From: Verrucomicrobiales bacterium | Lineage (GTDB): Bacteria; Verrucomicrobiota; Verrucomicrobiia; Limisphaerales; JACDHS01 | NCBI GenBank assembly: GCA_028293445.1 | Contig: JAQGOU010000349.1 | Coordinates: 1 to 33,936, forward strand | DNA: 33,936 nucleotides | Direction of reading: 5' to 3' | In this document: positions 5,321-33,285 of the stretch, piece by piece | Layout: each line of letters opens with the position of its first letter | Numbering within the stretch: the first letter of the stretch is position 1 | Notes under the pieces: generated by a model | Told to the model about the DNA's origin: nothing | Databases searched by the model: none | What the model saw: only the letters and a program-made list of their open reading frames with translations | Translations under genes and position numbers: made by a program

Positions 5321-5513
5321 TTACTTATTTATTTGAGGAGTAAACAATTTTAGCAAGGTGAAATACTTTCCCCGTTCTATCCTGCCGTGAGTTTTGGCTG
5401 GAACCGCATCATTGGTCTTCGTGGTTACGAGTGGTGTGACAAAATGTCTCACTTGGTTCTCATGGAGGAGGAATTTTCTAAAAAGGAACGAATTCCGGAG
5501 AGGCAGAAAAGGT

Positions 5514-6035
5514 CCGCCATTTTTATGGAAGTTTTCTAGAGTTCTGGTTGAGAGCTGAAATAGTTTCAGGCGCAAATCTCTTCCCCAAAGCTGGCCCGTT
5601 TTCCAAACCGGCCTCACGCCCTTTCCCGGACGGGAGTTTTCAAAAAGATGACCTCATTTTACTTTCCCAGAAAAGTTTTACAAATATTTGGAGGTTCAGA
5701 ACTTCCCCGGAGCTCCTCCCACAAAAATTTGGGTCCGTCCGGGCGCTCGGAAAAACTTTCTACAAATAATTCACGGAGTTTTGCTTCCTCAAAAAACTTT
5801 TTTCGCGAAAATCTTTTTTCCACCTTCCCCAAAACTCTGCCACAAATATTTCATGGAAGTTTCCTTCCAGGAAAAGCCTCCCACAAATAATTCATGGAAT
5901 TTTGCTTCCAGGAAAACCTCGCCACAAAAATAGAAAAGTTTTCTACCTTCCCGGAGAGGCGAAATATATGAATTTCCCTTTTTTAGCTCCGGAAAAACTT
6001 TTCTTTACGTGAAAAACTTTTTTCCGGGAGCCCCA
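5514..6035. repeat. Array 1: degenerate 41-bp tandem repeats
   Basis: Units start with ACAAAWAWTT at 5680, 5721, 5762, 5842, 5883 and 5924. The steps are exactly 41, 41, 80, 41 and 41 bases, the 80 being two degenerate units. The phase extends upstream: CTTTCCCRGA-like blocks sit at 5580, 5621 and 5662, again 41 apart, and a related ATGGAAGTTTTC block lies at 5525. It also extends downstream through 5961-6035 (AGCTCCGGAAAAAC, TTTTTTCCGGGAG). The best-conserved units (5842-5923) share CATGGAA, then TTCCAGGAAAA, then a CTCSCC tail. All units lie in the region between the divergent DUF4190 gene and the isomerase gene. ORFs across it are open only because the unit lacks stops. Confidence 0.85.
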
Positions 6036-6319
6036 AAGCAGGTATCGACAAGAACTTAGGCATTCATGTCGGTTTTGGTGGATGAAATATCCAGTTTTGG
6101 AAAAAAGGGGAACAACGATCCGCTTTCCACAAGCGCGTCGCTCCAAAAAGCGCCCATTTTTTCGAAGAAGTGCGAAGAATTAGGGTTAAAAACCGTAAAA
6201 GAGAGAGCGTCATCTAATTGCTTCCTCGAAACGCCGCACCGTCATTTTGACTCTTTTCAGGCAGGCTCTTGGCGGCCAGTTTTTGATCAATTTTTCCCAA
6301 CCACTGCGCCCGCACCTCT
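6036..6319. other. Intergenic stretch without recognisable gene
   Basis: I see no credible coding region, RNA gene or repeat here beyond possible very decayed array units near 6085-6130 (GGAAAAAAGGGG, CGCTTTCCACAAG). It should contain the promoter of the downstream isomerase gene, but no convincing -35/-10 pair stands out. Confidence 0.5.
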
Positions 6320-22980: not shown

Positions 22981-23400
22981 TCAAAAAACGAGTCTTTATC
23001 TGAAAAAGGGCACTTTGCAGCTTCGGAATTTTGGTCCGGAACAGGAAGGGTACGATGTTGTTTCGGAATTCCCGTCCGGAACAGGAAATGGCTCCGTTGT
23101 CGTCCGAAATTCGGGCCGGAGTTGGAAAGAGGTCCAATGTTGGTTCGGAAATCTGGTCCGGAACAGGAAAGAGGTGCGATGTTGCTTCGGAATTTCGGTC
23201 CGGAACAGGAAAGGGCTCCTTTTTGAACCGGAAATCTGCGCCGGAACAGGAAAGAGGTCCAATGTTGCTTCGAAAACGAGCTCTTTCCTGGGAAAGAGGT
23301 CCAATGTTGGTTCGGAAATCTGATCCGGAACGGGAAAGGGCTGCGATGTTGCTTCGGAATTTTGCTCCGGAACAGGAAAGAGGTTTGATTCGTTCCAGAA
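22981..23400. repeat. Array 2: degenerate 40-42-bp tandem repeats
   Basis: The anchor (AACAGGAA or variant, following TCCGG) recurs at 23041, 23081, 23121, 23163, 23205, 23246, 23288, 23330 and 23372. The steps are 40, 40, 42, 42, 41, 42, 42 and 42. Each unit reads roughly AGGAAAGAGGTCCAATGTTG, then SYTCGGAAATYTGGTCCGGA. A variant opening AAAACGAGYTCTTT appears at 22988 and 23273. More decayed copies may reach back to 22940. The array fills the space between the divergent RND operon and PPi-phosphofructokinase gene. ORFs through it (for example 22895-23413) show 14-residue repeats that slip between frames because of the uneven unit length. Confidence 0.88.
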
Positions 23401-32904: not shown

Positions 32905-33285
32905 CGCCAGATCCGGTGTCTTCGGCCCGTTTTTCTTCAAAATCCTAAATCCGGGACCTTTTTGGACGTTTAAAAAACCTTCCGCCAAATTCCGGCAACT
33001 TTTTAAAGCCTTTTAAGAGGCCATCCTGAATTCCGGAGGGTAAAAAGAGGGTTTTAAAAGTCTCCGCGATATTCCGGCGACTTTTTAAAGGCTTTAAAAA
33101 CTTGCCGGAATTCGGCGGCAGGTTCCCGAAGGCTTTTAGAAGGCCATCCAGCGTTCCGGCGGATTTTAAAAGGGTTTAAAAACTTGCCGGAATATCGCGG
33201 CGAGTTTTTTAAGCCTTAAAAAAGTCGCCGGAATTTGGCGGAAGATTTTTTAAGGCTTTTAAAATCCTCTGGAAGCGAGAAAGGC
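32905..33285. repeat. Array 3: 41-bp periodic repeats in both orientations
   Basis: The core TCCGG (or a decayed form) recurs at 32950, 32991, 33032, 33073, about 33112, 33155, about 33196 and about 33235, which is a 41-base phase. Units combine ATTCCGGCRACTTTTTAAAG with AGGCCATCC-type tails. Others read in the opposite direction (CTTTAAAAACTTGCCGGAAT), so 33061-33118 forms a large imperfect inverted pair. The block GGCCATCC occurs at 33019 and 33142, 123 bases apart, which is exactly three periods and points to a higher-order unit. The array fills the gap between the converging Uma2 and uracil-DNA glycosylase genes. Confidence 0.85.

Follow-up and report, generated by a model that had tools for sequence, protein, structure and literature searches.

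Tandem arrays of mostly unrelated sequence with a unit of 41-43 bases, usually palindromic, between the genes of an uncultured Verrucomicrobia-type bacterium and a relative in its family

The bacterial interspersed mosaic elements (BIME) and REP sequences are intergenic, occur many times per genome, and consist of clustered palindromes at regular spacing; REPs share one or a few sequences per genome and carry end tags (PMC2817692, PMC3733652). Published reports place GTAG repeats in Verrucomicrobia (PMC3733652). Tandem repeats that arise at many loci with different sequences, about half of them intergenic, have been described in Borgs, where the units are perfect and of varied length (PMC9879509); a text search of that paper for palindromes returned nothing. 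Here, we examined a window of 33,936 nucleotides (the whole stretch of DNA analysed), which is one contig (C306) of a 6.9-Mb, 659-contig genome from an uncultured Verrucomicrobia-type bacterium. The window contains three tandem arrays, listed in Table 1. No description of such arrays was found in the open papers searched.

Table 1. Coordinates of the repeat features in the window and of related features mentioned in the text
Feature	Position	Strand	Description
Array 1 element	5624..6120	.	About 500-base dispersed non-coding element with four further copies in the genome (contigs C600, C93 twice, C567)
Period-41 core of Array 1	5671..6003	.	Units start at 5671, 5711, 5751, 5792, 5831, 5872, 5913, 5955, 5993 in the wrap-around alignment
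Example palindrome of Array 1	5849..5874	.	TTTCATGGAAG TTTC CTTCCAGGAAA; repeated one unit later at 5890-5915
Array 2	23020..23384	.	Period 42 (42/125), sequence unrelated to Array 1; dyad symmetry not significant (p 0.67); in the gap upstream of a 6-phosphofructokinase-like gene (tentative name)
Array 3	32973..33260	.	Period 41 (123/82/41), unrelated sequence; strong dyad (0.78 of pairs on the axis complementary)
Array in G001 (same family, other genus)	L157:1032-1285		43-bp unit, upstream of the orthologue of the 6-phosphofructokinase-like gene
Array in G037 (another family of the order)	L088:485-740		GTGA-N6-TCAC palindromes every 21 bp
Non-array repeat family in G001	L067:4464-4630, L070:1993-2156, L075:4953-5119, L130:2647-2850, L114:2332-2474		Separate dispersed ~160-bp family with ordinary indels
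Lag 114-120 repeats	L029:12677-15071, L134:11874-12860		Multiples of three, probably coding repeats

The preliminary description reported that the unit starts of Array 1 are locked to a 41-base phase, and this observation is confirmed. The motif ACAAA[A/T] occurs between 5490 and 6060 only at 5680, 5721, 5762, 5842, 5883 and 5924, with spacings of 41, 41, 80 (= 41+39), 41 and 41. Three sites share each of two phases, against at most two in 5000 shuffles. Lag 41 is the best of lags 20-69 for segments 5500-5640, 5514-5680, 5640-5800, 5680-5950 (0.48 identity against a mean of 0.26) and 5880-6040. The signal upstream is weak (0.32-0.34), although lag 41 is still the best in two of the three upstream segments tested (lag 40 wins in 5560-5720), and the proposal that the phase continues to about 5525 is, therefore, supported only faintly. 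The windowed z value for lag 41 is 7.5 in 5681-6120, and with a slightly different scan the same region reaches 7.6 at lag 121, about three units; values above 7.5 were not reached in 20 shuffled loci.

The five copies of the Array 1 element have pairwise identities of 68-88% and align over 497 columns with 214 variable columns and no gap. The alignment stays gap-free beyond the periodic core. Short open frames of 80-81 aa overlap Array 1, but stops are present in all six frames of all five copies, substitutions are spread evenly over codon positions, and 41 is not a multiple of 3; an origin as a protein-coding repeat or pseudogene is refuted. No Rfam family matched the window, no presence on plasmids was detected, and a search for Array 1 DNA in 38 relatives of the order returned only its own genome.

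Array 1 belongs to a genome-wide class, which the preliminary description could not have known. In 586 kb of this genome, 47 autocorrelated arrays were found, most with lag 41 or its multiples, and in 687 kb of G001, the one other family member examined, 41 were found, again mostly with 41-43 or multiples. For unit lengths of 25-60, Tandem Repeats Finder gives 32 rows of 41-42 in this genome and 41 rows of 41-43 in G001, against three rows (26, 28, 30) and one row (33) of any other length. In 611 kb from 34 genomes outside the family (33 genomes of the order and a named Pedosphaera contig), one array of the kind was seen, that of G037, which displays the same geometry with a different sequence grammar; a match to it in the genome G021 lay in what reads as coding sequence. 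About a tenth of each family genome was sampled, the window's own genome being 89% complete and fragmented, and the density extrapolates to several hundred arrays per genome, or 2-3% of the sampled DNA. Of the 62 arrays of the two genomes, 18 had no called gene on one side because they lie at or near the end of a contig or sampled stretch, so arrays may break assemblies.

Circular comparison of the 62 consensus units gives 42 unrelated sequence families, 30 of them singletons: 28 families of period 41, 12 of 42 and 2 of 43. The input to this comparison was limited to 40-44, and the absence of other lengths rests on the raw histograms described above; families, axes and tests were chosen after seeing the data, and p-values are not corrected for this. 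The lack of a palindrome sequence shared genome-wide argues against REP/BIME elements spread by REP-associated Y1 (RAYT-like) transposases, a possibility otherwise suggested by the regular intergenic palindromes and the hundreds of arrays expected per genome. GTAG is visible in few of the consensus units, as read by eye, which is inconclusive as to end tags. Y1 transposases are not enriched, with 3 PF01797 matches in the window's genome and 7 in G001, within the range of the other order members (0-30). This explanation is considered very unlikely, although the association of RAYT genes with arrays was not assessed gene by gene.

Despite their unrelated sequences, the arrays share a geometry. 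In about 80% of them, bases pair across one set of dyad axes spaced every half unit (~20.5 bp, two helical turns), often with 0.45-0.78 complementary bases against ~0.25, and 82% beat column-permuted arrays at p<0.05. Two palindromes usually lie in each unit, with arms of ~8 bp and unconstrained centres of 3-5 bases, and complementarity ends beyond ~18 bp of separation. Some arrays, however, show no significant dyad (Array 2 of the window, L075, L125, L126 and L073), and over the whole Array 1 element the dyad is weak (P=0.01 in the window copy, 0.08-0.33 in the other copies). Across families, Fourier power exceeds that of column-permuted arrays at 10.25 bp (AT/GC ratio 1.9, p=0.015; purine/pyrimidine 2.4, p=0.001) and at 20.5 bp (purine/pyrimidine 2.3, p=2e-4), with no correction for the number of harmonics, and is absent in other intergenic DNA. 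The arms are AT-rich, whereas the dyad and linker are GC-rich.

Two inverted repeats per unit could also correspond to hairpins acting as RNA or as extruded single-stranded DNA, each ~20 bases forming a stem-loop. In the palindrome of Array 1, the T-A pair around TGGAA/TTCCA is C-G in the C93 and C567 copies, a double change that is compatible with either pairing in a hairpin or half-sites in double-stranded DNA. By contrast, G-T mismatches across the axes are no commoner than A-C mismatches (362 and 387, respectively), and compensatory double changes within arrays are not in excess (20 against 16.8+-3.5), though the counts are small. In the array L111, the half-site variants GTAAG and GGAAG combine freely within palindromes, as read by eye, which breaks pairing, and a hairpin needs no 10.25-bp composition period. 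We take these data as favouring half-sites in double-stranded DNA, and the hairpin explanation appears unlikely.

The preliminary description further proposed that a phase kept despite sequence decay is unusual for neutral tandem repeats, and suggested comparing substitutions and indels across strains. This comparison was run on paralogous copies instead, and supports the proposal. With one pair per family, gap openings per mismatch are 26/462 (0.056) in arrays and 63/465 (0.135) in other non-coding dispersed repeats of the same two genomes (Fisher p=2e-4); the non-array set includes the outskirts of Array 1 copies, which is conservative. In the Array 1 family, 0 gaps against at least 214 changes gives p=2e-10. 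With long gaps allowed, the pair of loci L030/L047 has gaps of 41 and 41 in the array and eleven gaps of 1-4 bp in its flanks, and L120/L118 has a gap of 82 in the array and six gaps of 1-9 bp outside. Three pairs of the L072/L080/L115 family have ~60 mismatches each and no gap. Exceptions exist: L075/L126 has two 1-bp gaps inside the array, L119/L123 has opposite 1-bp gaps (one on each side) plus 18+25 = 43, and L069/L072 has a 5-bp gap at the array's edge. Free indels, the outcome that would have contradicted the proposal, were not seen.

The positions of the arrays were also compared between the two genera, using gene calls that are simple longest-ORF picks. Arrays lie upstream of the G001 orthologues of the 6-phosphofructokinase-like gene of the window (L157), of the 179-aa gene (L073) and of a gene next to L047:1137 (L071), and the 66%-identical orthologue of the 19602-22763 gene has an array with a gene in between (L161). 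The two arrays upstream of the 6-phosphofructokinase-like gene belong to unrelated sequence families, as if arrays were replaced at a kept slot. Five other tested genes had no array close by. Because 44 arrays were placed between genes and 131 gaps were of at least 300 bp, roughly a third of long gaps hold an array, and we judge the positional agreement not significant. The arrays show no preference for gene orientation.

We tentatively favour an explanation in which the arrays are phased ladders of weak sites for a dimeric DNA-binding protein that binds cooperatively along one face of the double helix, such as a nucleoid organiser, a silencer or a supercoil-handling protein. A unit of four helical turns usually holds two ~17-bp palindromes whose dyads are two turns apart, so that all dyads face the same side. 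Half-site sequence could then drift and be homogenised within each array, whereas an indel that shifts the phase would be selected against. The protein, its cooperativity and the cellular role are inferred, and no protein was identified. One specificity cannot easily read 42 unrelated sequences, and a shared purine-right arm preference is only weak (26 of 36 families, p=0.011; second axis not significant).

The chief rival, which we consider less likely, is a selfish satellite: all arrays would descend from old 41-bp arrays, with unequal exchange keeping the unit length, template switching at palindromes keeping the symmetry, and nothing selected for the host. In agreement with this view, units are homogenised within arrays (up to 96% matches in G001), arrays are dispersed with their flanks as multi-locus families, whole-unit gains and losses occur, and density is high without orientation preference. 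However, unit length would be expected to drift over 42 unrelated families, the ends of the Array 1 element outside the periodic core are also gap-free, and exchange between units does not by itself create dyads or a 10.25-bp composition period. Even if the arrays are selfish, the narrow 41-43 bp range across unrelated families asks for a length-measuring step in how bacterial satellites arise.

Repeat families are usually recognised by shared sequence. Here the shared property is length and symmetry, so sequence searches would not reveal the class. If spacing is what is selected, these genomes offer dozens of independent natural experiments on how a protein reads DNA geometry, and a route to an unknown bacterial nucleoid or silencing factor. 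A more far-reaching and rather doubtful possibility is that only geometry is under selection in these rapidly turning-over arrays, which would form a sequence-relaxed DNA scaffold for a protein filament or chromatin-like particle, comparable in logic to phased satellites in eukaryotes. No PF00808 histone-fold gene was found in the 39 genomes searched.

A comparison with described systems reveals both shared and distinct features. CRISPR arrays are not matched, as whole 41-bp units repeat head to tail without unique spacers. Like the Borg tandem repeats, the arrays occur at many loci with different sequences, but Borg units are perfect and of varied length. As in BIME and REP elements, regularly spaced palindromes lie between genes at many places in the genome; by contrast, sequences differ between arrays, the spacing is ~20.5 bp, unit length is near-invariant, and gaps between divergent genes are used too.
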